A DNA stretch of 64,000 nt from Candidatus Aquicultor sp. (GTDB lineage: Bacteria > Actinomycetota > Aquicultoria > Aquicultorales > Aquicultoraceae), in NCBI GenBank assembly GCA_036504445.1, contig DASXVE010000024.1, positions 1 through 64,000 on the forward strand. The letters are read 5' to 3'. This document shows, in pieces, positions 22,804 to 40,980 of this stretch. The translations under genes were made by a program, and so were the position numbers. Within the stretch, counting starts at the first letter, position 1; every line of letters starts with the position of its first letter. Below the pieces are notes generated by a model. The model did no database searches and was not told the origin of the DNA. It saw nothing but the letters and a program-made list of their open reading frames with translations.

Positions 22804-23100
22804 GCTTATATTTGCTTGCGAGCCAACAGAGAACATTGTTATGAGGTAACGAGCAACAGATAAATATCTACTTTCGAAAAGCCATAATCTAACATGTTGT
22901 TCCACAGACCGAGTCACATTATGATAGCTACACACCACAAAATTATAAGACCAAAGGCCCTAGTCACGAATAAACGGCGCCCCAAGAATAGCCAGTCATC
23001 AATTCTGACCCATTTTTGACCCATCGAGCCGCACTTTCTTCCATAAAATAACAAAATAGCGAACCTCTCTAGGCTCGCTACCTGCTTTTTTATTCTGTGG
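22790..23100. repeat. Long direct repeat, copy B (native flank of tRNA-Ile2)
   Basis: Counterpart of 139-448. It runs from the last codons of the PaaK-like gene to the TGTGG that belongs to the att core and includes the tRNA terminator. It also holds ATTCTGACCCATTTTTGACC, two TGACCC words 11 bases apart, a motif that recurs at 23251. No gene is present in 22804-23335; the stretch contains this repeat, the terminator, attL and the TGACCC words. Confidence 0.85.
23057..23080 (-). terminator. Displaced terminator of tRNA-Ile2
   Basis: Read leftward from the tRNA piece at 23096-23140, the order is tRNA 3' end, 15 bases, a 10-bp stem (TAGCGAGCCT / AGGTTCGCTA, AGAG loop) and TTTTGTTATTTT. That is a standard intrinsic terminator for the minus-strand tRNA, now separated from the intact tRNA by 34 kb. 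Confidence 0.7.
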
Positions 23101-23335: not shown

Positions 23336-26300
23336 TTAAAGTTCCTGCTCGGCTTCATACCTTACTCTAAGCCCCGCCTCCTCAATTCTGAACATTTGCC
23401 GAAACCGTTTGTTGTAGGGGTTTGGTAAATGCTTCACCGTCGGACTTTCCGATAGGGCGTTCATGACATGAAAAATCGAAAATATTTCGTTTCGCTTGTC
23501 TGCCAATCTTACAGCAAGCTGGACTTCGGAGGAACCGAGTTCAAAGACCCCGTCTTCTCCTGTGCTAGCCTTCACTTCAATGAAATGAATCTTGCCGTCC
23601 ACTAAAACTTTAAAATCGTAACCATAACCATCATCCGTTCTATTCTTTGGAAACTTATGTTTGCTATTTTCCGAAACCCAACAATCTGGGGTGATAATAT
23701 CGGTACCGTAAGTCTGCTGCAATAGACGATATACATATATCTCGCCAGTTAACCCTACAAGGTTTTTCATCGCCTGAGTCATCCTTGGGGGCACTCCGCT
23801 TCTTTTACGGCCGTTTATCCCCGATCCATTACCAACACGTTTCTTTCTTTTAGACTTTAGCTGTTTTAGGTCGGTCCAATTTCTTATATCGAAACCCGAG
23901 ACTTCTTCAATGTGCAAATTCTGTTCCAGGTGGTCCCAGAGATTTGTAAGATTATCAGAGGTGTTCTCAAAAGGCTGGCCGCAAACTTGCACCATTCGCT
24001 TCTCCTTCTCCAACTTGAGTCGCTGCCTCTGCAAGCTTTCATCTGCCTGGTGCAAATCTTCCTCGAGGACCTTTAGTGAACTTATAACTCCTGACACATC
24101 GTACTCAGTATCGATAACATCCCAAAGCTCTATATGGTCGTCTTCCCTTGGAAGGCTCCGAATAGCATTTAGGCATGAAGATTCGCCCCAAAAATTGAGA
24201 AAGGCATGCTCATCCAAATATTCTTCTAGCTGGTTCATTAGGCTGTTTACACCATCAGCCCACATTCCCGGAAGAGCTTTGTTTCTCTCACACCAAACGA
24301 TGACTGCCTTCTGAAGCTTTACAAGCTCCTTTTTTACGTTTTCGTAATTCGCCGAATGAATCTCAATAGGATCAATTTTCGGCTCAAGTCCGCACTCGGA
24401 AAGCCTAACAAACAAATCATCTAGAGACTCCGCCTGTGTCACAGCATCAAGTTCTTCAGTCGATGCTCCGATCGCTTCGAGAGCTGGTGTTACTACCTCC
24501 ATCACCATTCTAAACTTAATATTCCAAAAACGTCTCGGCCAATCGTCAGGGCAACCAAATTCATGGATGCAATCCTCTAATTCCAAGAAGCGACCTGCCG
24601 CGTCGTTATCGTTAAGAATACGCCGAATAATGGCACGAAGCGGTTTCCGTGCAGAATCAAGGTACAGTTTAAATTGTTCCTCTATACCAGATATCTCGAT
24701 CGGACTCTCGCCAAATGGAGCAAGAACGGCATTCCACCGCTCAAGCTGAGCGCTCTCGCCTAGGATTTCAAAAAGGTATTCGCCGGTCTGCTGAAGTCCC
24801 CGCGAGGCTCGCGCAATCTCTAGGACCTTTTCCCACCCAAGAGATCTCAATTCAAGAGCTTTGAGATACGATTCCACTTGGTCATCAGTATTAAGCTCTA
24901 CAAGAGCAGCTGTATCAACTCCAGGTTCTAGGAGGTGTATGATTGGACGCAATACTTTTATGGTCCAAGAAAGATTACCAAGCCAACGTTGCTGCACCTC
25001 GGCATAGCGGTCCTGAGAAATTCCAACTTCCTGAAGAGCCTCGCATATTTCTTTCTGGCTAGGTTCAGCATTGTCAACAAGATTTCCTAGCACTAATTTA
25101 AGAGGGATAGGAAGATCAGCCCTTTCCACTACGGTAGATAGGGCTTCGCTAAAGAGGCTAATCTTTTGCCGCCCTATCTCTTCTGCTATCAGGGTATTCT
25201 CCCGAACATGCCAAAATGCCCTCACTGGCATGTTGGCAACCAAATAATCATCACGCCAGAGGCCAATCTCAACAGTATCGACCCATTGTACTCGCGCACT
25301 CCGAAGGCTATCCATAGCCTTTTGAAATGCTTTAGTCCCAGTTCCCCGATTCTGCTGTCCGGCATAGGCAAACACCGAGAGAACAACCGGCGGCAGCCAT
25401 TCCAAACCATTCGAGGCAAATGGTTGATCCGTGCCTTCGTTCCATGCTTTGCCATTAACTAGCGGTTGCATTTTGAGTTCAGATGCCAATTGCACTGCAT
25501 TCCCGTAAGAATCTAAGAAAAAATCTTTCAAACGTTTTGCATCTCTGAATTCAATGGCGATAATCGGCTTCGAATGCAATTCAAGGCTATCATGCAGAGC
25601 TTCAGTCGCATCAGGCAAGAATACCGGATCATCATCTGACGGCGCCGTAGCCTCTAATGTGTTAGACCCCCTGCGGACCACCAAAGTTTCTGGTAAACTG
25701 TTACCTTCCTTCGGATAAAGCTGTGTCCATGCGTTTCGCACCATTCCCAAGAACACATCCAGATTCGCAATGTCGACTGCCGGGTCGGCTAATGCATGCG
25801 CAAGGTCATCCAAGAGCCGGGCGTCAGGGGTCTGTATTTCAAGGTCAAATAGAGGCATACCAAGCTCTCGCATTGTACTAACAAGGGCTGGGTTCTTTTC
25901 CATGATTGTTATAATGGCAGAGGGAAGGGGCTTCAGGCAGTCATAATGATGTGAGCGTCCTGCAAGAACCGTAGAGGGCACAAGCCATCTCTCTCTAGGA
26001 CAAAAGAAATCGATGCTATCTTCCTGTGCGTCAGCTATCCATGCAGTTTCCTCGAAGAAAAACTTAAGGGGCGACTTTATCGTAAATCTATGCCTTTCGC
26101 CATCTAGTTTTTCGATTGCTAATTCCTCCCAGTCCTCATGGAGTTGTTGGAAAGGAATTGAATCTAGCAGAATCCTCATTAAGACCACTCGGAGACTGCC
26201 ATCAAAGTCTCCGTAGCGATCAAGACCGGGCAGAGAATATAGATGCTTGACAACATAGCGGAAATTCCCCGAGTAAGGCGATGCTATCTCTTTGGAAACA

Positions 26301-28903
26301 TATCTGCGATATCTTTTCCAGCAATCTTCCCAAAAGGTCTGAGGCCCCTTTTCAGGAATCATAACTTCTCGATACCCGCCGACCCAGAACACCGATGTCC
26401 AACCAGTGCTTTGTATTCTCTCGGGTCGAAGTCCTCTAAAAACACCTGCTTTCTTCAAAAGATCATAAGCCCTATCGGCTAATCCGCCCCAGTACTTGCT
26501 GTCTGGTGGCAATAAAAGCCTTTTCGATGCTTCTTGGCATTCAGAAGTATTAACCTTGCTCAGATATAGATCGAGATCTTTACCAAGGGTGCCATTGGAT
26601 TGATCATCCCAACCGGTGCCAAAGGTAGTCTCATCCATTTGGTACCAACCACTCCGACATGGAGCTGGCAAACGAGCAAGTAATTTTGTAGCATTTTCTC
26701 CTCTATCTCTTGCGACAAGGCTAAAGATAAGCTTTAGGCCCCACTGCAAAATGTCGCGACAGAGTTTGCCATTCTCAGATCGGAGAGAAACAGGAAGATC
26801 TGGAATTATAGGAATCAGAACACTTCGGAAAATATGTTCAACACCGAATTGCTTCACTAAGTCCGAGGAGAGAAAGGTGTGAATCGGCGTTGAAGCGTAG
26901 CCGCCGCGCTCGCGCGCTGTATGAGTAGTTATAGATTCGTTCAAGAAAGAGATGAACGGCCTTAAACTCACCGGAATTTCCTCAATCGCCTCCTCAGACT
27001 GGATCTCGTCATCCAATCCAAGCTTCATCGGACGGAAGAAAACCGCGCTCCTTTCCCCAACAGAATGTAGCTGACCATCTGTCCCCAAGAGCACCTTTTT
27101 GCCCTTCAGTAAAGAAGCCCTACCCTCAAGAATACTTTCAACGTCATGCCAGAATCCATTCCAATCTACCCTTCCGTCTGAGGCATGAAGAATAGTAGCT
27201 GCCTTTTCGATGGTGTCTGCAAGCTGTTGATCTGTAGCATAAGAACCGATACTGATCTTTCTGTAGATTTGTTTCACCAAGCCCATACGAGAAGAGAGCG
27301 CCTCAATGAAAGCGGGATAACAGGCGGATTCACGGAGAAGGCTGGGGGATAGAACCTCCGCGTCCTCAACAACACTGAGAATACTGGCTGTTTTTAGGGC
27401 TGCCCACCCTTTATCCGTCAAGCAGATATTCTGGTCTGCGATGTTAATGCCTTCTTCCTTCCAGAGCGTCGAGATTGTGGACCACCATCTTTCCCCAGCC
27501 GCTCCGTCAGCGTATGAGACCAAATCAATAATTGCAGCTGCCTCGTCCTCGCCCCGACCAACCAAACTATTAAATATCACGCCCGTTACTTTCCTGGCGA
27601 TAGACCTTAAAAGTAGCATGTTAAGTGGTTGGCTAAAGTCTACATCGGTTCTACTCATATCTCCATAAAACGGTGCACTGAAATGGGCTGAGCAACCACT
27701 AGACAAACCAGTAGGAAGGTAAATATTCAGGATTCCGTCTTCGGGGCTTTCCTCCAGGCGCACAGCAACTGAAATCCTTGCACTCGCAAGCTCTGGCCAT
27801 TTCCCTGGAAGTTCTACGACAGCAGCAGCTAAAGCCTCAGCGTTCGCTGACTTGTCGTCATCCCCAATACGCTCCTCCCACAACCAGAATCTTCTCTCGG
27901 TTTTTACGGCTTCATTATCGTAAGCTGATTCCTCACGAATAGAGACTTCCGAGCCATTTTCAGGATCATTTTCTCTCGAGGCCTCCAATCGGAGAAACTT
28001 GCGGTTATATTGATTTGTAACCAGCTGAAAAGCTCTAACTCTATCAAGAAAAAGCACCGTATTCTCATTGAGGTTTTTTAATTCAGTAAGCGCAAGTTCT
28101 CTTGCTTTTTCATTGATAAAAGGCAGTCTGATAACCGATGCATATCCCTGCTTCTCATATTCCAATACTTTTTGTGGTACCGCTTTGTCCCTAATTGGCT
28201 CAGGAAGGAGATACGGAGATAGATGCTTAAGTTCTTTACGCAGCCACCCCTTGCCAGACTTCTTGCACCGTCCCCGAAAAGCTATGTATTTCTCATTGGA
28301 CCACGACACTAATGGAATGTCGCGGTCAAGAGGGCAGCTAGGAGCGTTATTTCCTTCCAGCAAGGTGTCTATGGAGGTCTCAAATTCTTGCACTATGAAG
28401 GGGTTAAACCGGAAGCAAAATCCATCAAATAGAAGGCTTTCCTTCCTGCGCCTCGAATAGATTTCAGGTGATTTCGATATTTCAAGAACACTCCGGAAAC
28501 CTATGCCCTTATTGCCTATTGATTTTTCAGGATCTTTGTCGCTTTGGCCGAGATTAGATAGACTCTCAAAATTTGAGGCTGAGAAAGGTTTGCCGTCATT
28601 AGCAACATAAAGAGCGCCAAAAGGCGCCTCATTTTCCATAATACTGAGTTCTATTCTGCGCTCATCTTCCCCCTCTCCTCTCTCAAGAAGAGCATCATGT
28701 GCATTTTGTATCAATTCGATAAGGAACCGCCCGTGATATTGGTGTTCGACCTGTTCAGTCAAGTTGTGAAGGCTTTTGTAGTTGGACGTTCCATTAGCGA
28801 TCTCATCTAGGAAAGTGTGAATCTGACCAAGCGTCTTATGAAGAATTATCTCTTGAAATTCTTCATTCTTGGATGTCTTAATCTGATTCGTCACATTCTT
28901 CAT
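23336..28903 (-). CDS. Giant sacsin-like HSP90 ATPase with C-terminal NOV_C/DUF3883 domain
   Basis: 1855 residues. The N-terminus (about 40-140) is a Bergerat-fold ATPase of the sacsin/NO VEIN type: LIELIQNAHDALLE with the Glu/Asn/Asp set, YVANDGKPFS and GNKGIGFRSVLEIS. A very long middle (about 300-1600) has no motif I recognise and includes helical, coiled-coil-like segments near 1600-1650. The C-terminus holds a NOV_C/DUF3883 domain (GLTGEIYVYRLL, then YDFKVLVDGKIHFIEVKAST), whose D...ExK pattern suggests a PD-(D/E)XK nuclease. GAGGAG precedes the ATG. Standing first in a defence island, it is a candidate single-gene antiphage factor: chaperone-like sensor with a nuclease tail. Function is inference. 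Confidence 0.82.
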   Translation of the reverse strand: MKNVTNQIKTSKNEEFQEIILHKTLGQIHTFLDEIANGTSNYKSLHNLTEQVEHQYHGRFLIELIQNAHDALLERGEGEDERRIELSIMENEAPFGALYVANDGKPFSASNFESLSNLGQSDKDPEKSIGNKGIGFRSVLEISKSPEIYSRRRKESLLFDGFCFRFNPFIVQEFETSIDTLLEGNNAPSCPLDRDIPLVSWSNEKYIAFRGRCKKSGKGWLRKELKHLSPYLLPEPIRDKAVPQKVLEYEKQGYASVIRLPFINEKARELALTELKNLNENTVLFLDRVRAFQLVTNQYNRKFLRLEASRENDPENGSEVSIREESAYDNEAVKTERRFWLWEERIGDDDKSANAEALAAAVVELPGKWPELASARISVAVRLEESPEDGILNIYLPTGLSSGCSAHFSAPFYGDMSRTDVDFSQPLNMLLLRSIARKVTGVIFNSLVGRGEDEAAAIIDLVSYADGAAGERWWSTISTLWKEEGINIADQNICLTDKGWAALKTASILSVVEDAEVLSPSLLRESACYPAFIEALSSRMGLVKQIYRKISIGSYATDQQLADTIEKAATILHASDGRVDWNGFWHDVESILEGRASLLKGKKVLLGTDGQLHSVGERSAVFFRPMKLGLDDEIQSEEAIEEIPVSLRPFISFLNESITTHTARERGGYASTPIHTFLSSDLVKQFGVEHIFRSVLIPIIPDLPVSLRSENGKLCRDILQWGLKLIFSLVARDRGENATKLLARLPAPCRSGWYQMDETTFGTGWDDQSNGTLGKDLDLYLSKVNTSECQEASKRLLLPPDSKYWGGLADRAYDLLKKAGVFRGLRPERIQSTGWTSVFWVGGYREVMIPEKGPQTFWEDCWKRYRRYVSKEIASPYSGNFRYVVKHLYSLPGLDRYGDFDGSLRVVLMRILLDSIPFQQLHEDWEELAIEKLDGERHRFTIKSPLKFFFEETAWIADAQEDSIDFFCPRERWLVPSTVLAGRSHHYDCLKPLPSAIITIMEKNPALVSTMRELGMPLFDLEIQTPDARLLDDLAHALADPAVDIANLDVFLGMVRNAWTQLYPKEGNSLPETLVVRRGSNTLEATAPSDDDPVFLPDATEALHDSLELHSKPIIAIEFRDAKRLKDFFLDSYGNAVQLASELKMQPLVNGKAWNEGTDQPFASNGLEWLPPVVLSVFAYAGQQNRGTGTKAFQKAMDSLRSARVQWVDTVEIGLWRDDYLVANMPVRAFWHVRENTLIAEEIGRQKISLFSEALSTVVERADLPIPLKLVLGNLVDNAEPSQKEICEALQEVGISQDRYAEVQQRWLGNLSWTIKVLRPIIHLLEPGVDTAALVELNTDDQVESYLKALELRSLGWEKVLEIARASRGLQQTGEYLFEILGESAQLERWNAVLAPFGESPIEISGIEEQFKLYLDSARKPLRAIIRRILNDNDAAGRFLELEDCIHEFGCPDDWPRRFWNIKFRMVMEVVTPALEAIGASTEELDAVTQAESLDDLFVRLSECGLEPKIDPIEIHSANYENVKKELVKLQKAVIVWCERNKALPGMWADGVNSLMNQLEEYLDEHAFLNFWGESSCLNAIRSLPREDDHIELWDVIDTEYDVSGVISSLKVLEEDLHQADESLQRQRLKLEKEKRMVQVCGQPFENTSDNLTNLWDHLEQNLHIEEVSGFDIRNWTDLKQLKSKRKKRVGNGSGINGRKRSGVPPRMTQAMKNLVGLTGEIYVYRLLQQTYGTDIITPDCWVSENSKHKFPKNRTDDGYGYDFKVLVDGKIHFIEVKASTGEDGVFELGSSEVQLAVRLADKRNEIFSIFHVMNALSESPTVKHLPNPYNKRFRQMFRIEEAGLRVRYEAEQEL

Positions 28904-29128
28904 TAAATACGCTCCTCAACCTGAAGGCGATACTCAGAGGCTGCCCAGACGATTTCGTAATCTTTCTTTTCTGTTGTGGCGGTCAAACAGCACTTCATAG
29001 GTAATAGCTCGTTCGGTGGAACTGCTGAGCATTGTGTCGTCAATGCTGGCACGAAAGACTCTGCTTGACTTCATGCTCCTAATATCCCCCGGTTAACCGG
29101 CTCTTCTTTGCTATCCCTCGACAGGCGT

Positions 29129-29929
29129 CTAACGAATTTGGCATCGTTCTTTCATAGTCTCCCACTCACTTGATAATTCCTCGTTAAGTGAATTGTAGAT
29201 ATCAGTATTGAGCAAAATGCCAGACCAGGATAAGGTTGCTTCATATTCGATAACATTGATGAGTATCTCCGGGGTTTTGCTGAACTCCTTGTCTGGGGTG
29301 TTTTTTAGGTCTTGAAACAGACGTCGGTAGTTTTCATAAATCCTTTTTACTCGGCCAACAAACAATGTTTGGTTTACCGCTTGTGTAAATAGGATGATTG
29401 GAAGCACTAATTTTAATAGCATAATGAATGCATTGTTTTGGCCAGTAAATGCAAAGAGGATAAAAAGTACACCTATTAAGGCATTTTGTATCCATAGAGG
29501 CTTTAGCATGCGCTTAGAAACATTGTAAGTGAACAAAGCGTTTTCAAACCCGTTGACCGCCATCTTATAAATTCCCTGTTCAACTTCATCATTTGAAAAA
29601 TAGCCCTTAGAGCTTTCCTCCGAGTAAGTGGTTGCAAACGAGTTGTCTATAAAATCCATTCTTTTTTGAACGCTTGCTTCATAAATAATGTAGTTGGTGA
29701 TAATTACCAACAGACCGTAAGCAACGATAAAGATGGAATTTATGGAGTCGATAAGGTCGCTTACGGGTCTCCGGGCCTCATTATCCAGCTGAAAAAAGAA
29801 CGCGATGATTGCTAAAGCGGTAGCGATATACAGCACATACCTAGCAGCCTTATCAAAGGATCTCGCTTGCTCGAATGTGCGGCTAAATGGAACCACCATG
29901 TTATCATTATCCGTATTCTGGGAATTCAT
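29129..29929 (-). CDS. S-4TM family pore-forming CBASS effector
   Basis: 266 residues with four hydrophobic segments in two pairs (about 31-48, 67-86, 143-162, 166-188), a cytosolic helical part between the pairs and a soluble C-terminal region. The start (NMVVPFSRTFEQARSFDKA) and the NQTLFVGRVKRIYENYR stretch fit the S-4TM family, predicted membrane effectors next to CD-NTases. By analogy with CBASS, a cyclic nucleotide signal would open the pore and kill or arrest the infected cell. The ATG lies 23 bases inside the CD-NTase gene, so the two are translationally coupled. Confidence 0.82.
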   Translation of the reverse strand: MNSQNTDNDNMVVPFSRTFEQARSFDKAARYVLYIATALAIIAFFFQLDNEARRPVSDLIDSINSIFIVAYGLLVIITNYIIYEASVQKRMDFIDNSFATTYSEESSKGYFSNDEVEQGIYKMAVNGFENALFTYNVSKRMLKPLWIQNALIGVLFILFAFTGQNNAFIMLLKLVLPIILFTQAVNQTLFVGRVKRIYENYRRLFQDLKNTPDKEFSKTPEILINVIEYEATLSWSGILLNTDIYNSLNEELSSEWETMKERCQIR

Positions 29930-30896
29930 CGCCGAAAACTTCTCTCCATTTATTTATCGCTTTTTCCTGATCTGAATCTCGGGTTTCAAACTGATACGCT
30001 TCAAAACCTTTTTGGTTAGCCTCTGTGGCCTTAGCTGATATTTTCAGCTTATCCTCAACGGATAAATCATTTAGCTCTCCCTGAAAGCCTTTGGGATCGA
30101 GCACCGAACCGAAAATCGCCGTGCTCAAGTGGGCCCAAAACTCTATGAGGTTTGCATCAATCCAGTCACTAATGCTACTTCGAGTTGCGTAATAATTCAA
30201 AATTATGTTTTCGAATAGATACGAAGGTATCGTGGGCATGATTGGCCTTCTGTTCCAATACTTTAACGTGCGAATTATCTGTAGAATCGCCCCACTGTGC
30301 TGCTGGTTGATTTCGGTGACACGCGTTTGATCAACTCTTGGATCGGTAGCCTTCCAGCCGCCGCTGCCATCAGGGATGAGATAATAGCCTGTATCTGTGT
30401 AGAATGCCGGCACAATGTCAAAAACCCACTCGTAAGAAGTGAGCTGCAGCGTGGCGGCCTCTTGTCGTCTATGTAACTCCGCTTTCTTATAATGCTCTAT
30501 TTGAGCCAGGGAGCTAACTAGCTTATTTACCAACCGTATGGAGTTAAGCCTTCCATTGTCATCGCACAGCTTTCTTAAGTTGGTTGCTGTTTCCGGCACA
30601 TCAATCAAATAGCTCTTGCCGTAAGACTGCATATTGTAAGTCGACCCCTGGGCCGCAAACGTAAGGATCATATCGATGTCATCAAGCGGCCTAATTTTGG
30701 TATTTCGGGCAAACGAGCCGAACCTAATATGCATGCCATCGTATAACACCGGAAAATCCGATATCTTATTTGGGAGATTTTCTAATTGACCAAATAGCCA
30801 ATCACGGCTTGCTCTCGCAACCTTCGTTTTGTCAGATACAAGGTTTACAACGTCTTTATTGAACTCAGAAAATGCAGCATTTACACTTGTCGCCAT
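29907..30896 (-). CDS. CD-NTase of a CBASS system (SMODS nucleotidyltransferase)
   Basis: 329 residues. The nucleotidyltransferase core shows GSFARNTKIRPLDDIDMIL: the Gly-Ser helix and the D-x-D metal ligands near residues 70-85. A third acidic residue lies in EWVFDIVPAFYTD. A conserved YLIPDGSGGWKATDP block and the helical C-terminal OAS1-like domain (LKYWNRR) complete the family picture. It should make a cyclic di- or trinucleotide on phage infection. No Cap2/Cap3 (E1/E2, JAB), HORMA or TRIP13 genes are present, which makes this a type I CBASS with the S-4TM effector. GGTGG precedes the ATG. Confidence 0.9.
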   Translation of the reverse strand: MATSVNAAFSEFNKDVVNLVSDKTKVARASRDWLFGQLENLPNKISDFPVLYDGMHIRFGSFARNTKIRPLDDIDMILTFAAQGSTYNMQSYGKSYLIDVPETATNLRKLCDDNGRLNSIRLVNKLVSSLAQIEHYKKAELHRRQEAATLQLTSYEWVFDIVPAFYTDTGYYLIPDGSGGWKATDPRVDQTRVTEINQQHSGAILQIIRTLKYWNRRPIMPTIPSYLFENIILNYYATRSSISDWIDANLIEFWAHLSTAIFGSVLDPKGFQGELNDLSVEDKLKISAKATEANQKGFEAYQFETRDSDQEKAINKWREVFGDEFPEYG

Positions 30897-31074: not shown

Positions 31075-32319
31075 CTAGGCGATCTCCAGGAACTTAAGTA
31101 CTTTATTCAAATCCTGGATAGCTTGAGCGCTGATCGTGAGAAGTTGTTCTTTGTCGGCCAAGATGGGATTGCCCCGCGAGATCGATTTGCCAACATTAAT
31201 ACCTGGAAAATCGATCTCCTCGAGCGCTATTATAAGGTAGTCAATCACCGCATCGATCGCAACATCTAAAGAAAGTATGCTCTTTAAATGCCAGTATTCA
31301 TCACCTTGCCGAGGATACTCTCCACTGGCAGATGTGCGCTCATAAATTCGCAGCTCATAGTCAGGCGCCAACATTTTTAGAAGGGATGTAAACTCACCTC
31401 GATTAGCTTTGATGCCACTATAAAACCTTCCGATCGCCTTGTTCTTATCGGTATGCCGTCCATTTCGAATTACCGCACTAAGTCGCAGACCATCCTTGCC
31501 AAGAACAGCATTGAAGTTACACTGTTTAAAAATATCCGTATTCTCCTGCGGTTTGCGAAGCGCTACCCAGGCGTCCCGGTCATCGCCCGGTATGAGGCGC
31601 CCTACGTGTTGATCAGGGTAAGCTTTTGTGATTTCTGCCGGCAGTCTCGCACACAACTCCTCGGCAAACGCGCTAAGCTTTCCTTTAATGATGCGCTTGT
31701 AATCCTCATCGCGCATGATAAAGAAATCAAAATCGTCGCTCGTAAAACCTGTAAACGGTGCCAAGCCAATCAACTCCAAATAATCGATAAAGTGCCTTAA
31801 CAGAAACCAGTCGGTGTTGTTCTCGGGCTTTATGCTTGAGAAAAGCAAGTACAATTCGGCCCACATCATAACCCTTATATCTTGCTCAGTTGCGCCAATT
31901 GATGCCGCGTGCCTTTGTAGCTGTGCACAATTTAAGCGGGAGAACGTCTTGTTCTCAATAAGTACCACAAACGATGGCGAATAAAGCCACGCATCCGGTC
32001 TTCCCCTGCCGTTACTTGCATTACCTTCTTCGATGTCAGCCGTTGGCGCTAGAGCAAGAATAACCTTATGTTGCGCCCCTAAATCAGGCACATGGCTTCG
32101 CTGCAGCGCAAAATGCGTTCCGCCAGAGCTCAACCTTGTAATCCCAAGATAGTTAAGGAATTGCCGAAGGACCGCCTCGGATGCGCCCTCCAGTACGTTA
32201 ATAAGAGCCTTTGTCGTATTGTCCTCTATTTGCACGCGGTCGGCCGCCGTATACTCTTCGCTGGACGACTTATGCCTCGGACCGCGATAATAGTAAAAGA
32301 TATTCTTGTGTGGATCCAT
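31075..32319 (-). CDS. PD-(D/E)XK nuclease-like protein
   Basis: 414 residues. The segment NGRGRPDAWLYSPSFVVLIE followed by NKTFSRLNCAQLQRHA has the order Asp, hydrophobic strand, E-x-K and a helix with Gln, as in PD-(D/E)XK nucleases (residues about 100-140). The rest is unfamiliar: a central helical region and a C-terminal part ending in a helix with a conserved SLDVAIDAVIDYL block. It is on the CBASS strand with a 178-base gap and ends next to a divergent CD-NTase. It may be a separate defence nuclease or an accessory of either CD-NTase; nothing in the sequence decides this. Confidence 0.65.
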   Translation of the reverse strand: MDPHKNIFYYYRGPRHKSSSEEYTAADRVQIEDNTTKALINVLEGASEAVLRQFLNYLGITRLSSGGTHFALQRSHVPDLGAQHKVILALAPTADIEEGNASNGRGRPDAWLYSPSFVVLIENKTFSRLNCAQLQRHAASIGATEQDIRVMMWAELYLLFSSIKPENNTDWFLLRHFIDYLELIGLAPFTGFTSDDFDFFIMRDEDYKRIIKGKLSAFAEELCARLPAEITKAYPDQHVGRLIPGDDRDAWVALRKPQENTDIFKQCNFNAVLGKDGLRLSAVIRNGRHTDKNKAIGRFYSGIKANRGEFTSLLKMLAPDYELRIYERTSASGEYPRQGDEYWHLKSILSLDVAIDAVIDYLIIALEEIDFPGINVGKSISRGNPILADKEQLLTISAQAIQDLNKVLKFLEIA

Positions 32320-32408
32320 ATTTCTATCTTAAGCCATTAATAAGCGCTAAGATACGGATAATTTGGACGCCATTCATATAGAGTTTGATGAAATCGGTAA
32401 GGATGCTG

Positions 32409-33230
32409 ATGACTGTAAATTCTTATCTAACTAATTTAGCGAATAAGTTAATCCTGTCACCCACGGAAGTATCCAGCATTAATACTTCCATAGAGACGTT
32501 GGCCTCTCGTCTTGACCTCTACTTCGGCAATAACATCAACACCCACTATGAGTTTGGATCCAGCACCCGTGGCACCATCCTTCCCAGAAAGGCAGATGAG
32601 AATTCGGATATAGATTATATGATCATCTTTGGCACGGCAAGCGGATATATGAAGCCGCAAACGTATCTCGACCGCTTGCGGCGTTTTACTAATGATAGAT
32701 ACCCCATGTCAGAGATTTATCAGTCACACCCGACCCTAGTGTTGTCGCTTAACCATATAAAGTTTGAACTCGTTCCCGCGATCAATCATTTTTGGTATGG
32801 CCTACAGATTCCTTCGCCAGTGTCACAATGGTCTGATTGGATGGCTACAAATCCAAAAGGTTTAAACCAAAAGCTAACATCCGCCAACACCAATAACAAA
32901 TCTCTTATTAAGCCGCTTATTCGCCTGATCAAATACTGGAATGCTTGCAACGATTACCCTCTTAACTCTTACGAGCTTGAGAACTTTGTTATCTCCGCGA
33001 ACCTTTATGACGATATAGCGTTGTGGCTTAACTTTATACTCTGCAATTCGCTCGCAGACTATTTTTACGCTTTCTGGAATGCGTTTTCTTATCCCAGCAA
33101 CAAGGCGCAGTATCTAAGGGATAAAGTTGCTAAAACCAAGCAGCGTGTTAAGTATATTAAATCATGTGAGCGGAGCGGGAACACTCCTCAAGCGATTATA
33201 GAGCTGCAAGGCCTTTTGCCAAACCTTTAG
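32409..33230 (+). CDS. Second SMODS-type CD-NTase without a standard effector
   Basis: About 273 residues. YEFGSSTRGTILPRK leads to DENSDIDYMIIF: the Gly-Ser helix and D-x-D, with a third acidic residue in IKFELVPAINHFW, and a C-terminal helical domain (LIKYWNACNDYPLNSYELEN). It belongs to the same superfamily as the CD-NTase at 29907 but is clearly a different subgroup: it lacks the GSGGWKATDP block and has a shorter C-terminus. I start at the third ATG, seven bases after AAGGA. It is transcribed away from the CBASS pair. The only same-strand neighbour is the NERD nuclease 204 bases downstream. Confidence 0.82.
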   Translation: MTVNSYLTNLANKLILSPTEVSSINTSIETLASRLDLYFGNNINTHYEFGSSTRGTILPRKADENSDIDYMIIFGTASGYMKPQTYLDRLRRFTNDRYPMSEIYQSHPTLVLSLNHIKFELVPAINHFWYGLQIPSPVSQWSDWMATNPKGLNQKLTSANTNNKSLIKPLIRLIKYWNACNDYPLNSYELENFVISANLYDDIALWLNFILCNSLADYFYAFWNAFSYPSNKAQYLRDKVAKTKQRVKYIKSCERSGNTPQAIIELQGLLPNL

Positions 33231-33434
33231 TAAGCCATGCGTAATCTATTCATATCAATTAACAACGCGAACGTTTTACTTAATTAGCGATAGTTAATAA
33301 GCACATGAGAAAAACCGAGTCTCCCCATGAGAATCTTGAGTCGAAAACAGCTACCCCGGCAAGCTGATTCTTAGACATCGGCAGATTTGCCTCGGGCACC
33401 TTTGTAAATCAACCGATATGAATACTATCGTTTA

Positions 33435-34472
33435 GTGTTTGTGGGAGATTGGAAACAAGTTTTGGCTCGACTTTTAAAGCAAGACCCTGTCCTACGCAGA
33501 GAATTCAAAGAGCGAATCAATAAAAAGGTTCAAAACAAGAAAGAGCAGATGAAGCGCGAGATGGATGAAGAATTGCCGGCTGTTGCTGCATGGGTTGCAA
33601 AACCACTCGCCGGCCTCTTTTTCGACCGAATTAACGCAAAGAACATGGAAAAAGGTGACGCTGGGGAGTTTAACGTCTTTCTCCAGGCCAAGATGCGCTT
33701 ATCGGACGAGTGGTTTGTCTTTAACGACGTAGTTGTTGAGCCGGAACCGGGCAGACTCACCCAGATCGATCACATTATCATCGGCCCACCTGGTCTCTTT
33801 ATAATTGAGACGAAAGCATGGAAAGGCTCATATTCCGCATACAAGGATAATTGGAAATATCGCAACGGCACAGAATGGATTAAGTGCAAGAGCAGCCCTA
33901 CAAAGCAAAATACTTACCATGTAAAGGCCATCGCTGAGTGGCTTAAGGGAACAAAGATTTTGAGCATTGATGCTCCAGCAGAAAAATGGATAGTACCTAT
34001 TGTGGTTTTCACTCGAGCACAGTGGCTTAAAACAACGGATTGCTCAATGCCGGTATTTAACGGAATTTCAGAATTCATTGCTTATCTTAAAGCAAAGGCA
34101 GAGCGATACTTAGGCCAAGACGATATTGAGAGATTAACAGCGCTAATCCAGTATCCAACACTCAGTAAAGCGTTAAGGCAGGATCAAATCAAATGGTTTG
34201 GCGCGAGCGAAGCGTTGCTGCTTTCTGATGCAACCGAAAACAACCAAGACACTAGTGCTTTAGAAGTCGAAGAACGCATACAGACCAAGGTTTCTAGTGT
34301 GCCGGAATACACCGAAGGTGTTACTAAAAACGGCAAGCGATATGTGAGGATTGTCGGTACGATGGAACAAGCAACTATGGTGTATGAGCACTTTAGGACA
34401 CAGCATCCCGATCTTAAACCACCGCGAAAAGATCGATTCAAGGAAGGAATGTTCTTCTTTTACATATCTTAA
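33435..34472 (+). CDS. NERD-domain nuclease-like protein
   Basis: 345 residues. After a basic, helical N-terminus (ERINKKVQNKKEQMKREM) comes a NERD domain at about 70-190: KGDAGEFNVFLQAKM, QIDHIIIGPPGLFIIETKAW with the D...ExK catalytic pattern, then QNTYHVKAIAEWL. The C-terminal third is a separate small domain (GKRYVRIVGTMEQATMVYEH) of unknown type. NERD proteins are predicted DNA nucleases. GTG start; no clear ribosome binding site. As the only companion of the second CD-NTase it is the best candidate for its effector, though no nucleotide-binding domain such as SAVED is recognisable. Confidence 0.8.
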   Translation: MFVGDWKQVLARLLKQDPVLRREFKERINKKVQNKKEQMKREMDEELPAVAAWVAKPLAGLFFDRINAKNMEKGDAGEFNVFLQAKMRLSDEWFVFNDVVVEPEPGRLTQIDHIIIGPPGLFIIETKAWKGSYSAYKDNWKYRNGTEWIKCKSSPTKQNTYHVKAIAEWLKGTKILSIDAPAEKWIVPIVVFTRAQWLKTTDCSMPVFNGISEFIAYLKAKAERYLGQDDIERLTALIQYPTLSKALRQDQIKWFGASEALLLSDATENNQDTSALEVEERIQTKVSSVPEYTEGVTKNGKRYVRIVGTMEQATMVYEHFRTQHPDLKPPRKDRFKEGMFFFYIS

Positions 34473-34555: not shown

Positions 34556-35488
34556 TTACTTTCGATGAGCTTTATCATGACAAACAGTACATAGCGAAAC
34601 TAAGTTTTCCTTAGTATTCCCGCCGCCTTTTGCGTGGTGCTCAATATGATGTATTTCCAAGTGCCTTGCATCCGAAGGGTTCCACTCCTTATGAGACCAA
34701 TCACACTCTTGACACGCATAACCGTCGCGACGAAGGACGTCTCTCCGGACATCGTCTGGAATATGCCGGTCATGCTCGGGGCTTTGCCGATCGGCCTGAA
34801 GCACGTATTCCCCGACACTAAGGTCCGGGCGCCCCGTCGATTGCGTCGCGACCGGCCAACCATACTCCGTCCGTAACTCTCGCACCCGCCGAGCCCACTC
34901 CGTTTTGTCGCCTGCGACGTAGCGCAACTCCTCATTCGTAATCGGTTTGCCGACATTTGCTCGCAGATATTTAAGAATTTTATCCCGCACCGAGTCTTCG
35001 CCTTTACGAATCGTATTTGCAACATTCCAGCGGTGTGCGGCATCGCGATCCTGCTGCGTATTAAGCAAGACATAATCGCTTGTCTTCATAGCCGTCAATT
35101 CGTGCGGAACTTCTACGTCTTGATCCTCACTCATCTCTTTGACGGTTACGCCGCTGGCAATAGACCAGCCGAATTGAACCCTCAACTCACGCACGCGTCG
35201 CGCGTATTCTTGAATCCCCGAGACGACAAGGAGTTCGTCGCCGTCTATGACGATCCCCGGATGCTTGCGAAAGTAGTAGAGAATCCGCTCCCTTGCGGAC
35301 GATGCATATTCCGAAGGAATTAGCGCCGCACCCAGATCGCGCAAGGTATTAAAAACCGGTACGAGCGCGAGCACTTTAGGCCGAAGCTCTTCGGTTTGAA
35401 GCTCGGCTTTGAAGTTTGCTATCAGCTCCTCGACTCGGCGCCGCGCCGCTTCGGGATCAATATGTTTTGATTTTTCATTATTCGCCAT
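34556..35488 (-). CDS. HNH restriction endonuclease
   Basis: About 310 residues. The C-terminus is a full HNH/McrA-type domain: RDGYACQECDW, HLEIHHIEHHAKGG and NLVSLCTVCHDKAH, with the four zinc cysteines and catalytic His. Upstream are two similar winged-helix-like units (SSARERILYYFRKHPG...YARRVRELRVQFGW and SVRDKILKYLRANVGK...WARRVRELRTEYGW, about residues 60-120 and 165-225) that could form the sequence-reading part. It starts 11 bases inside vsr at an ATG. With the neighbouring C5 methyltransferase it makes a plausible type II restriction pair. Target site cannot be deduced. Confidence 0.82.
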   Translation of the reverse strand: MANNEKSKHIDPEAARRRVEELIANFKAELQTEELRPKVLALVPVFNTLRDLGAALIPSEYASSARERILYYFRKHPGIVIDGDELLVVSGIQEYARRVRELRVQFGWSIASGVTVKEMSEDQDVEVPHELTAMKTSDYVLLNTQQDRDAAHRWNVANTIRKGEDSVRDKILKYLRANVGKPITNEELRYVAGDKTEWARRVRELRTEYGWPVATQSTGRPDLSVGEYVLQADRQSPEHDRHIPDDVRRDVLRRDGYACQECDWSHKEWNPSDARHLEIHHIEHHAKGGGNTKENLVSLCTVCHDKAHRK

Positions 35489-35891
35489 GTAGGAACCTCT
35501 CCAACTTTCGCATGAGTTCTTCAGGATTCTTGGTCTCGCACTCCCAAACAACTAATACATTCCAGCCCAAGGCCTTTAATTCCTCTTCTACCTTTATATC
35601 ACGTCTCATCGTTTTGTCGATTTTCTCGTTCCAGAATTGTGTGTTGGAAGAAGGTCGTTTTGAGCGTTTACATCCTTCGTGCCCGTGCCAAAAGCAACCA
35701 TGCACAAAGACGATCTTCTTATGGCGAGTCAATACGAGGTCGGGATGACCGGGCAGGTTTTTGCCGTGCAGGCGATAGCGATACCCAAGACCGTGAACGG
35801 CTCTTCGCACGACCATCTCGGGCTTGGTATCTTTGCCGGTGACACGAGACATTATCCAACTGCGTTTTTCTTTATCGAAAACATCGGGCAT
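35478..35891 (-). CDS. vsr: Very short patch repair endonuclease
   Basis: 137 residues. It shows the full Vsr pattern: RSWIMSRVTGKDTKPEMVVR, YRLHGKNLPGHPDLVL with the catalytic Asp, and KIVFVHGCFWHGHEGC with the zinc ligands. It nicks at T-G mismatches produced by deamination of 5-methylcytosine. The ATG is two bases after the dcm stop, and the gene overlaps the HNH gene by 11 bases, so all three are one transcript. It limits the mutagenic cost of the cytosine methylase. Confidence 0.93.
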   Translation of the reverse strand: MPDVFDKEKRSWIMSRVTGKDTKPEMVVRRAVHGLGYRYRLHGKNLPGHPDLVLTRHKKIVFVHGCFWHGHEGCKRSKRPSSNTQFWNEKIDKTMRRDIKVEEELKALGWNVLVVWECETKNPEELMRKLERFLHGE

Positions 35892-35893
35892 GC

Positions 35894-37090
35894 CTAGAGT
35901 CTGGCACACAGGAGCGCATAAACGCAATCAGCGATGCGAGCGGCGAGCATCGGAGGGACCGCATTGCCGATTTGCTTCGCAATCTCCGTCTTTGATCCAG
36001 TAAATCTGAACTCATCAGGAAACGACTGCAAGCGCGCGGCCTCACGGTGCGTGATGGGCCGGTGCTGCTGTGGATGCAGGTAGCGACCTTTTTCCGGTTT
36101 GAAGAATTCGGTCCGTATTGTAAAGGAGGGCTTATCCCACCACAGGCGACCAAAAAGGTCCGTGCCGCCGGAAGTTTTGCGAATCCAGCAATCCGGTGTG
36201 ATCTCCGGTGCTCGCTCCTGCAGATCGAAGCGATTCATGCCCTCTTCGGGTATCGCCATATAGCGGGCTATACTTTTCGGGGTCGGTTTGCGGCCGAAAT
36301 GAAGATCTAGCGGACCTGGTTCGATACGAATCTCGGTTCCGACCGGTATCGGTAGATCGCTTATTGCGTCTCTAACGGTTCGCCACGGCTTGGCATCGCT
36401 GATGTATTCGTCGAAATCTTGCGCAAACATTTTGCGGTAGCCGTTGCCGCTTGGAACAACATGGGTCTTCTTCGGCGGAAATATCTCCTTTGGATCGGCA
36501 AACTTGCATCCGAGGATAAAGGCGCGCCAGCGAGTTTGCGGCACACCGTAGTCTGCAGCGCACAGGCGCTCCCATGCCAACTGAAAGCCCATCGATTCCG
36601 CTTTTTCAATGATTTGTTGGTGCTCGTCGGAGCCGATAAGCTGCGGCACGTTCTCCATGACGAATATGTCAGCATTTGAACGCTCTACGACCTCCATATA
36701 AGGAAGCCATAAGTGCTTTCTTGGATCGTTGTCTCGGTTCTTGTTTAGCAAGCTAAAGCCTTGACAGGGAGGACCGCCTACAACAACATCGGCTTTCGGA
36801 ATTTTGTTATGAGGATTATCTAGAATATCAATTATATCGCCATAGACACAGTGATTACCGAAGTTCATGTTGTAGGTATTGGCAGCATATTTATTAATAT
36901 CGTTAGCCCAGGCCGGCTCGAAGAAGTGCCCGAGAAGCTCCGTAAAGCCAAGCGTCATACCGCCCGCTCCCGCGAAGAGGTCGATGAGCTTCGGTCGCGG
37001 AGTAAACGGCGCGAGCTGATTATTTATCCTCGCGTTAAAAATCGTCTCGTTATCGATAATTGCTCGGTCCGCTGCTTTTGCCTGTGCCAT
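35894..37090 (-). CDS. dcm: DNA cytosine-5 methyltransferase
   Basis: 398 residues with all main C5 motifs: I LIDLFAGAGGMTLGF (near residue 35), IV VVVGGPPCQGFS with the nucleophilic Cys109, VI MENVPQL, VIII near residue 190 (YGVPQTRWRAFILG), IX ITHREAARLQSFPDEF and X QIGNAVPP. The target recognition domain lies between about 200 and 330. GGAGAAATG precedes the ATG. First gene of the dcm-vsr-HNH unit. Confidence 0.95.
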   Translation of the reverse strand: MAQAKAADRAIIDNETIFNARINNQLAPFTPRPKLIDLFAGAGGMTLGFTELLGHFFEPAWANDINKYAANTYNMNFGNHCVYGDIIDILDNPHNKIPKADVVVGGPPCQGFSLLNKNRDNDPRKHLWLPYMEVVERSNADIFVMENVPQLIGSDEHQQIIEKAESMGFQLAWERLCAADYGVPQTRWRAFILGCKFADPKEIFPPKKTHVVPSGNGYRKMFAQDFDEYISDAKPWRTVRDAISDLPIPVGTEIRIEPGPLDLHFGRKPTPKSIARYMAIPEEGMNRFDLQERAPEITPDCWIRKTSGGTDLFGRLWWDKPSFTIRTEFFKPEKGRYLHPQQHRPITHREAARLQSFPDEFRFTGSKTEIAKQIGNAVPPMLAARIADCVYALLCARL

Positions 37091-37498: not shown

Positions 37499-40006
37499 CT
37501 ATCTTCCGTTGCGTTGTGTTGTTATCGGAACGATTAAGCCGACCTGTTGAGCAACAGGAGTGTAAACATCTATTTCTTGTTCCGGAGTTCTTATTGTTAC
37601 GACTAAGGCGTAACGCGTTCTGTTGTCAAACTTGCCGAGGTGTTTCCGCTCTCGCCACCAACCGATTCTCGGAGATACTGCGATAAAGTGAGATTCCGCA
37701 AGCTCTGCCGCCGACCCTCTCCAAATATCGGAATGAATTGAGCCTTTATCACGGGCCTGCCCAATAACCCAATGATCCGACGCACTGGCTGTTCCGGGAT
37801 GCCCTTCATCCTCATCGCGTGCAGCGGCATTAATTCTCTGGACGAACTGGTCTTCCGTTTCATACGGTGAGTTGATGTCGAATCGTAAGGCGTGCGAAGC
37901 ATACCGATACCTGTCTTTCCAACCGATTTCGCCGGGGCCCGGTTCTATAAAGTAGGAGAGTGTTATGCGCATTTCAACCTGCGTATCATGCAATCCCAAC
38001 AGCACCTCACGCGGCCAAGGTAAATCGTAGAGATGCATATCGCACGTCTTCCCCCTGCCTCCTTGAACTTCAAACGGTTTGATTTCCGCCTGTGCTATCA
38101 GCGTCAGCGAGTTTGATGCGCTATACAGCGCGGCCTCTTCGTTCGGAACACCGTATCCGCAAATACGCAGCAAGTTCTTGAGTTCGGTTTTCGTATCGTT
38201 CTGCACGAATTGCCTTTTGAGTTCATCCGGCCATTCGGCGGAATGCACCATAAGCGCGCGAATCGTCTCCGGCCAATAATCGGGATAGCGGGCTTGAATC
38301 TTGGCGGCGAGGTGGGCGGCTTGCGCCGTCGCCGCACTCGTCATATTAAAGCAATCGAGTAGCCGAGATTGCGGCTGGTAATGTGTGGACAGCAAAGAAA
38401 GATCCGCACATTCCGTCGCGAAGTTGCCGTCATCGACCGCCATGTTGCCGCCCTCCATGACAATCTCCGGCTTGATAGGCCATCTATCATTCCATGTTAG
38501 AGACGTTGTTGTAAAAGGCGAAAGCTGGTTTCTTCGGGCTATTACAGTATAACCATTTAATGTAGGATCAGTAATCGTATCTAATTGCGTGTAGGCACCA
38601 ACAGTAAGCACGTTCCATGATTGGGCCGGATCATGGATGGAATCGGTAATTTGGTTTTCGGGGTAATTCGCTACTTGATTAAAATCGGTGATGTTGCCGG
38701 CGCTTACTACCATTAGCCGTTTTACGCCATCGTCTACACCTGATGTGAGTTGATCCAACTCGCCCGACCACGAAGACGGCCTCCCCCGATCACGTGTATC
38801 TTCAGCAGTGATTGCCATACAATTGATGCGTTTGCGTTCTGGGGCCCTGATTTCAGCTAAATATACGCACTGAGCATTAATATCGCCCCAAAGCTTCGGC
38901 TCATTCTGTCCTTGCGGCGGGAGCATCTTCACGGACTCAAGCACATGGTTAACGATAATGGGTTCACTGCCGGAAAGAAGTTCCGCAATGTTGCCGTAAC
39001 CGGAAATGCCTGCCATCAGAGTGCCGTGACCCTCGTGATCATGTGTACCCCATGCCGAATCATAGCAATGACAATCATTACCATCGAGCAGAGGCGATAG
39101 CATAGGATGGCCTGTATTAACGCCTGTATCGATCATGCAAACAGAAGTATTGGCTTCACCGTCTACATGCAGACGCTCGCTAAAATCTTCGACCCACTCT
39201 GCTTGCTCCAGATTCGGTAGCTCATCCCAGAAAGCCGCGGTGTCCTTTGCCTTGCGATACTCGGCTATCTCATCCGAGTATCGTGTCAAGTCCTCAAGCT
39301 GGCGGCGGTTCACATGCACGAGTTTAACCGCACGTTCCGGGAACTTTATAGAACCTGTTTTTGAATTTACCTGCTGTTGCACGAGCAATTCTTCGAACCG
39401 TCGAATGGCTTCATCGCTATCGCTGCTAAGCCAGACTTCACACCACTCCGGCTCTTCACCGGGCATTAAATCATTATCGTCTTGCCAGAACGATTCGACG
39501 AGCAAGGCCTTACGCAGATCTTCTATACTGTTAACGAGATCGGCATTCCGCGGTTTACCCGATTTGCTCTCCTCGTTTGCATATTGCTCGAGCTTTTTGA
39601 AGAAATCCTGTCGCTTATCGTTTGCTATAAAAACGGTTGCATAGATTACGCGCAAATACTCGTCTTCACCGGTCTCGTCATTTCTTACTAGTTCTTCCTC
39701 GATTCTGACGTTGCATAGCCTGGCTTTCTTCGACCGCATGTCCTCAAGGCTTTTGGTCACCAAATCATATCCGGGTGCACCCCGAAATTCAAGGTAAATC
39801 CCCTCTCGATCCGCATGAGTGACGACGAACTCGTTTTCCGCCTCTTCCCAAGCTTGACTAAGGCGCTCCCGTAAAAAGTCGGCGTGCCCTTGTCGATTGC
39901 CGCGCCCAGGTATGCGTTTTTTCGCACCCATTTGCGTTACACTCGTAAACCCCAACCGTGACGGCGGATCTTCAAGTTTGATATGCGAAAGATTTGTCTG
40001 CGGCAT
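37499..40006 (-). CDS. ietS: Subtilisin-like S8 protease (IetS-type)
   Basis: 835 residues. The catalytic triad is readable: Asp in SVCMIDTGVNTGHPML (near 283), His in HDHEGHGTLMAGISG (near 330) and Ser in FNMTSAATAQAAHLAA (near 557). The N-terminal 270 residues are an extended domain of unknown fold, and the C-terminal 270 are beta-rich (ITLSYFIEPGPGEIGW). No signal peptide, so it is cytoplasmic. The ATG overlaps the stop of the AAA ATPase gene by one base. ATPase-subtilase pairs of this kind are the IetAS antiphage system, originally described as a plasmid stability locus. The protease probably cuts a target when the ATPase senses infection. Confidence 0.85.
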   Translation of the reverse strand: MPQTNLSHIKLEDPPSRLGFTSVTQMGAKKRIPGRGNRQGHADFLRERLSQAWEEAENEFVVTHADREGIYLEFRGAPGYDLVTKSLEDMRSKKARLCNVRIEEELVRNDETGEDEYLRVIYATVFIANDKRQDFFKKLEQYANEESKSGKPRNADLVNSIEDLRKALLVESFWQDDNDLMPGEEPEWCEVWLSSDSDEAIRRFEELLVQQQVNSKTGSIKFPERAVKLVHVNRRQLEDLTRYSDEIAEYRKAKDTAAFWDELPNLEQAEWVEDFSERLHVDGEANTSVCMIDTGVNTGHPMLSPLLDGNDCHCYDSAWGTHDHEGHGTLMAGISGYGNIAELLSGSEPIIVNHVLESVKMLPPQGQNEPKLWGDINAQCVYLAEIRAPERKRINCMAITAEDTRDRGRPSSWSGELDQLTSGVDDGVKRLMVVSAGNITDFNQVANYPENQITDSIHDPAQSWNVLTVGAYTQLDTITDPTLNGYTVIARRNQLSPFTTTSLTWNDRWPIKPEIVMEGGNMAVDDGNFATECADLSLLSTHYQPQSRLLDCFNMTSAATAQAAHLAAKIQARYPDYWPETIRALMVHSAEWPDELKRQFVQNDTKTELKNLLRICGYGVPNEEAALYSASNSLTLIAQAEIKPFEVQGGRGKTCDMHLYDLPWPREVLLGLHDTQVEMRITLSYFIEPGPGEIGWKDRYRYASHALRFDINSPYETEDQFVQRINAAARDEDEGHPGTASASDHWVIGQARDKGSIHSDIWRGSAAELAESHFIAVSPRIGWWRERKHLGKFDNRTRYALVVTIRTPEQEIDVYTPVAQQVGLIVPITTQRNGR

Positions 40007-40980
40007 TAGGAGCTACCTCGCAATCCCCTTCGCGCGATTTGTCTATTTTGTAAAGCCTTGAGCAGTATCGCCGAGCTTACTTTATCGACATCTCCCAAAA
40101 TTGCTTGCTTAATGGCATCGCGACAGGCCAGATCGATTTCTGCGTGACTTAAACCCTCGCTGCTTTCGATAACCGGCTTCCAAGCGAACCGGCTCTCCTT
40201 AAAGGTTCCGAGCACATTTTTGATCAACCGCTTTCGCGCATCCTTATCAGGAGCCTCATAATAGAGAACATCGTCGAAACGACGAAACAAAGCCTGATCC
40301 AACAATCCCGGATTATTCGTGGCTGCAATTATTATACTCTCGGACGTATCTTGCTCAATAAATTGCAGAAATGAGTTCAGCACTCGACGCATCTCGCCGA
40401 CGTCGTTGTCCATCGAACGTTCGCCGCCGATGGCATCGAATTCATCAAATAGATAGATGCCGTGCGCTTGCTCTATAAGATGAAAGATTTGGCGCAGCTT
40501 TGCGCTGGTCTCACCCATGAATTTCGTCACAAGTCGGTCTACCTGGATGGTATTTAAGGTTAAGTGCAGTTCATTCGCCAAAACGCGCGCAGTCATGGTT
40601 TTCCCTGTTCCGGGAGGGCCGATCAACAATAACTTGCGCCGGTGTGAGAGCCCGTGGTGCTTGAGCTTTTCTTGTTGGCGATACTCATGAATCACTTGTT
40701 GAATCCGTTCCTGCAGCACAGCAGGAATTACAAGCTCGCTTTTAGAGACCTGCGGCCTGTCGATAAGCACTAAGCCTTTTAAGTCTTGCGGAAAAGGAAC
40801 AACGCGAGAACTGCTTTTTTTCCGCTCACTGTCTACGATTTCTCGAATATCATTAGCAAGGGCTGAATGCCCCTGCTTAGCCTCATGAGCAGCAACTTGC
40901 AGAGCGACCGTATAAAACCTTTCAGGTTGATCGCTGAAATGCGATCTAATTAATGTCTTTAATTGTTCTGCGGTTGCCAT
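40006..40980 (-). CDS. ietA: AAA+ ATPase partner of the subtilase (IetA-type)
   Basis: 324 residues. An N-terminal helical region (1-70) precedes an AAA+ module of the FtsH/katanin-like class: Walker A LLIGPPGTGKTMTARVLA (121-128 core), Walker B GIYLFDEFDAIGGE (175-182 core), sensor 1 IIAATNNPGLLDQAL and arginine finger FRRFDD. The C-terminal lid holds AEIDLACRDAIKQAI. GGAGCAG precedes the ATG. Coupled to the subtilase gene by a one-base overlap, it likely acts as remodelling sensor or gatekeeper of the protease. Confidence 0.88.
   Translation of the reverse strand: MATAEQLKTLIRSHFSDQPERFYTVALQVAAHEAKQGHSALANDIREIVDSERKKSSSRVVPFPQDLKGLVLIDRPQVSKSELVIPAVLQERIQQVIHEYRQQEKLKHHGLSHRRKLLLIGPPGTGKTMTARVLANELHLTLNTIQVDRLVTKFMGETSAKLRQIFHLIEQAHGIYLFDEFDAIGGERSMDNDVGEMRRVLNSFLQFIEQDTSESIIIAATNNPGLLDQALFRRFDDVLYYEAPDKDARKRLIKNVLGTFKESRFAWKPVIESSEGLSHAEIDLACRDAIKQAILGDVDKVSSAILLKALQNRQIARRGLRGSS

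Follow-up and report, generated by a model that had tools for sequence, protein, structure and literature searches.

The 1855-codon open reading frame at 23336..28903 (-) of the window, the whole 64-kb stretch of Candidatus Aquicultor sp. DNA that was analysed, almost certainly encodes TmtA, a member of Tiamat; we take TmtA to be the PADLOC name for the single protein of that system. The product matched the PADLOC TmtA model PDLC03971 with 875 bits (E 3e-263), residues 8-1851 of 1855 aligning with positions 5-1780 of the 1782-position profile, and a second TmtA model, PDLC03966, with 656 bits. Taken as a whole, our observations are probably best explained by a horizontally acquired TmtA that acts through an ATP-driven clamp licensing DNA cutting by its C-terminal NOV_C domain.

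Surveys attribute Tiamat, a published single-gene defence system, to Millman et al. (2022) and give its mechanism as unknown; in Pseudomonas, one survey found it concentrated in defence hotspots on genomic islands. The present protein resembles known Tiamat proteins in its length class, its encoding by a single gene, its sacsin/GHKL N-terminus and its NOV_C C-terminus, but is divergent, even its nearest known relative in our searches being only 44% identical. The sequence-only reading had put it forward as a candidate stand-alone antiphage protein; this is most likely right, the protein being a full-length TmtA and so a member of a published single-gene system, but the candidate is not new, the family having already been named and described as antiphage. 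Since the family and its antiphage role have been described, the present gene is a divergent copy, not a new kind of system, and it adds little beyond a testable mechanism. That mechanism can, however, be framed precisely and down to exact residues in an intact divergent copy in which the catalytic residues of both end domains are kept.

Reading frame and end domains of tmtA

The tmtA gene runs on the (-) strand from an ATG start at 28903 to a TAA stop ending at 23336, and the strand, coordinates and length first read from the letters proved exact. A stop-free frame of this length is not due to chance (log10 P about -48 given the base composition). The start codon is preceded by a strong Shine-Dalgarno sequence, GAGGAG (28912..28917, (-)), at a normal spacing of 8 nt, and a consensus scan placed a terminator-like stem of 13 pairs with a T-rich tail 3' of the gene (23054..23083, (-)). 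The copy is complete and appears to be intact.

At the N-terminus, residues 56-163 (28415..28738, (-)) form a sacsin-type GHKL ATPase domain (SACS), recognized by Pfam with 43.0 bits against a curated cut-off of 32.8, and residues 59-149 matched the NCBIfam sacsin N-terminal ATP-binding domain with 75.7 bits against a cut-off of 50. All three boxes of a GHKL/Hsp90-type ATPase domain are intact. The N-box, ELIQNAHDAL (residues 63-72; 28688..28717, (-)), follows the pattern of the Hsp90 N-box; it supplies a candidate general base, E63, and a candidate Mg ligand, N67, and in the alignment it is kept in those homologues whose sequence reaches it. In the G1 box, ANDGKPF (residues 101-107; 28583..28603, (-)), A101, N102, G104 and F107 are invariant in homologues, as are nearly all positions of the G2 box or ATP lid, IGNKGIGFRS (residues 129-138; 28490..28519, (-)). 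The chaperone-type ATP site that had been proposed for this end was therefore borne out by a SACS match above cut-off together with E63/N67, ANDG and IGNKGIGF. AlphaFold models were built as two overlapping halves from a 6-sequence alignment and are of low confidence overall (pTM 0.41 for the first half and 0.35 for the second); the N-terminal half-model resembles the ATPase structures of TRAP1 and MORC2 (best E 4e-5, prob 1.00), some of the matched MORC2 structures being with DNA.

The C-terminal NOV_C (DUF3883) domain, residues 1750-1824 (23432..23656, (-)), scored 33.9 bits in Pfam against a curated cut-off of 22.1 and contains the motifs GYDF (1761-1764) and IEVKAS (1775-1780). Together with E1721 just upstream of the domain, D1763 and E1776-x-K1778 are invariant in the aligned homologues, even where identity over the C-terminal part drops to 28-34%, so that the D...ExK domain read earlier from the sequence holds. 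In the C-terminal half-model the NOV_C region reached a pLDDT of about 80-90 with the element order alpha-beta-beta-beta-alpha-beta, and nearly all of the top PDB matches of this model were PD-(D/E)XK enzymes, namely archaeal Hjc resolvases (prob up to 0.99) and HincII, with weak E-values of about 0.05-0.7. A sequence search of the PDB for a NOV_C relative found none (best E 0.26, unrelated). The modelled domain has the topology of a PD-(D/E)XK nuclease, into which an E...D...ExK site would fit, and this supports a nuclease assignment but is not conclusive. NOV_C occurs also in the plant protein NO VEIN, and a nuclease role is for that reason not guaranteed. More broadly across the homologues, the catalytic positions of both end domains are kept at overall identities of only 21-44%, those of NOV_C invariantly. 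All of its catalytic motifs are intact, as had been noted for the ATP site, and the protein may be active. DUF3883 has been termed a novel REase domain in the context of RM operons (PMC3710099); TmtA shares this domain, above cut-off, with the RM-operon proteins, in which it is fused to SNF2 helicases, whereas in TmtA it is fused to a GHKL ATPase.

The N-terminal domain of TmtA is nearest to sacsin by sequence and to TRAP1 by model, and the repeats of sacsin possess ATPase and chaperone activity (PMC3629688), both of which would suit a sacsin-like chaperone or unfoldase in which the ATPase would serve to remodel some protein or complex of the phage while NOV_C merely binds DNA or acts as a scaffold. 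We regard such a role as distinctly improbable, given that even divergent homologues never depart from the E, D and ExK of NOV_C, a constraint stricter than mere binding would call for, and that Pfam showed in TmtA neither the three-repeat structure of sacsin nor its ubiquitin-like, DnaJ and HEPN domains; comparison of the protein with itself likewise revealed no internal repeat of the ATPase module. The ATP-binding N-domain of human sacsin (SACS) is detectably homologous to that of TmtA (PF25794; PDB 5v44, E 0.005), but TmtA carries a single ATPase module and a NOV_C end in place of the repeats and the DnaJ, HEPN and ubiquitin-like domains. True sacsin orthology was rejected on the single SACS match and the lack of repeated SIRPT modules and of DnaJ/HEPN.

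A proposed ATP-gated nuclease

On balance, we favour the view that TmtA works as an ATP-gated nuclease, by analogy with VcSduA, in which a GHKL ATPase is joined to a Shedu nuclease and both sites are needed. VcSduA lost its protective effect when the Glu of its ATPase site was mutated, and likewise on mutation of the Lys in its nuclease site; infected cultures were protected at all multiplicities of infection tested, which is consistent with direct restriction (PMC12137116). Like TmtA, VcSduA (type I-D Shedu, paraMORC3-like) consists of an N-terminal GHKL ATPase, a middle region and a C-terminal PD-(D/E)XK site, this last being predicted in TmtA. The two differ in that the nuclease of VcSduA is DUF4263 (Shedu) and the putative nuclease of TmtA is NOV_C, and VcSduA is far shorter, its nuclease Lys being residue 557. 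Membership of TmtA in Shedu (SduA) was itself rejected, as neither Pfam nor PADLOC scans gave a DUF4263 match.

In the mechanism that we propose, TmtA would dimerize via the GHKL domain in the manner of MutL, MORC and Hsp90, and its large middle region would recognize a phage-specific form of DNA or a protein-DNA complex. Binding of ATP would then close the clamp around or onto the recognized DNA or complex, and clamp closure or ATP hydrolysis would free the C-terminal NOV_C nuclease to cut DNA, most likely that of the phage.

The middle region, residues 164-1749 (23657..28414, (-)), begins as a continuation of the GHKL module and passes into a conserved part that is partly all-helical (about 1280-1640) in low-confidence models. 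The sequence-only reading had described about 1300 residues without recognizable motifs here, and a Pfam scan of residues 163-1750 indeed found no domain above cut-off; the region is, however, spanned by the full-length TmtA profile of PADLOC and is about as conserved among homologues as its flanks. The second half-model is poor in this part of the protein, and the models are too weak for the middle region to be read from them. The roughly 1300-1600 residues might constitute an undescribed sensor fold that recognizes a phage structure and couples recognition to ATP-gated DNA cutting, a speculative suggestion that we hold to be more doubtful than not by a wide measure. If it were true, Tiamat would be a giant single-chain MutL-like restriction machine with no need for sequence-specific methylation.

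Homologues of TmtA and the surrounding defence island

The closest relatives of the present TmtA, 39-44% identical, were found in a Methylococcaceae assembly, where the homologue lacks its 5' end at a contig edge (L002), in an IMG/VR contig (L047) and on a Desulfosarcina plasmid (L033). A homologue from the same phylum (L003) scored 1707 bits with the TmtA model, yet is only 23% identical to the present protein, and a search of ten genomes from the family to which the window belongs gave no match. This pattern points to horizontal acquisition of the gene. Full-length homologues at 21-23% identity are carried by plasmids of Roseovarius, Rhizobium, Burkholderia and Sphingobium. In viral contigs, an alignment-based search retrieved homologues on L047-L050 and L052 and a partial match on L051; a search of these contigs with the single TmtA sequence gave no match, and two further scans yielded no additional contigs. 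The Desulfosarcina plasmid homologue (L033, 14932-22214) is split by an antisense gene for a group II intron reverse transcriptase, and this copy looks broken.

Several phyla contain full-length homologues, each encoded by a single gene, and the neighbours of these genes vary. The neighbourhood evidence is based on about a dozen loci collected by hand. Among them, tmtA is flanked in L047 by a Type IIG RM gene on one side and a DruE-like gene on the other, preceded by a helicase gene; it lies near a Type I restriction subunit in L049 and beside conjugation-type genes in L002, and plasmid genes also occur among the neighbours. The neighbours of more distant TmtA-like genes, tallied by family and not by locus, include DrmA and DrmB (DISARM), Type III RM and Type IIG RM, and several homologues, including plasmid copies, have no recognizable defence neighbour. 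Neighbours thus change from locus to locus, and across the loci examined none of them recurred as a constant partner, as would be expected of a stand-alone gene. These comparisons agree with the single-gene arrangement proposed at the outset, with no obligatory partner, and support the placing of TmtA as a putative stand-alone mobile defence gene.

CapP-type regulators are usual for toxic effectors, and in L048 (6476-7899) a gene for a CapP-type peptidase and one resembling a methyl-directed REase (DUF6998) run directly into tmtA; L050 (6473-7911) carries genes that match this upstream pair in size and order, the match being one of sizes and order only. A regulated three-gene variant of Tiamat is possible in these two loci. 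Such a regulator, found in L048 and indicated in L050 by gene sizes and order, would also suit abortive infection, in which the triggered ATP-gated nuclease would attack the DNA (or RNA) of the host, so that the infected cell dies or stalls, instead of restricting the phage; the sequence leaves the target of the nuclease unfixed, and the systems adjacent to the present gene (CBASS and RM) include both kinds. We nevertheless think this outcome unlikely, since VcSduA, the nearest tested analogue, protected at all multiplicities of infection and TmtA is accompanied by neither an antitoxin nor a modification partner.

In the window itself, tmtA forms the left edge of a defence block, in keeping with the position at the edge of a defence island suggested earlier, and genes for CBASS, a second CD-NTase, RM and IetAS lie to its right. 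Immediately upstream is a CBASS pair that is a neighbour and not part of Tiamat, consisting of a 4TM effector (29129..29929, (-); PADLOC 257 bits) and a CD-NTase (29907..30896, (-); 457 bits) whose genes overlap by 23 nt. The effector gene is on the same strand as tmtA at a gap of 225 nt, and a consensus scan of the gap detected nothing on the (-) strand that resembles a terminator or promoter, so that co-transcription with tmtA is possible. This would be the setting expected if TmtA were a component of the CBASS operon switched on by its cyclic nucleotide, but we give that arrangement hardly any credence, as that pair comes with a 4TM effector of its own and no CD-NTase gene stands beside homologues in the loci examined. 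A functional unit of TmtA and CBASS was rejected on the differing neighbours of the homologues.

Further to the right, a gene (31075-32319, (-)) whose 414-aa product fell just short of the PDDEXK_4 cut-off and matched nothing in PADLOC lies between the two CD-NTase genes. The second CD-NTase (333 bits, TTG start) is followed by a NERD-domain protein (32385-34472, (+)), and the two might make up a further CBASS-like pair whose effector would be unusual. A cytosine methylase, for which DruM2 was the best PADLOC match, and a downstream HNH endonuclease gene (34556-37090, (-)) are a probable Type II RM pair, and beyond them the genes of the IetA/IetS antiphage pair, an AAA ATPase and a subtilisin-like protease, overlap by one base (37499-40980, (-)). 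To the left of the island are a tyrosine-type phage integrase (13745-14854, (+)) and, 16 kb from tmtA, a fused AriA-AriB gene of the PARIS type with DUF4435 (5735-7333, (+)), which matched PADLOC AriAB with 503 bits over residues 13-526.
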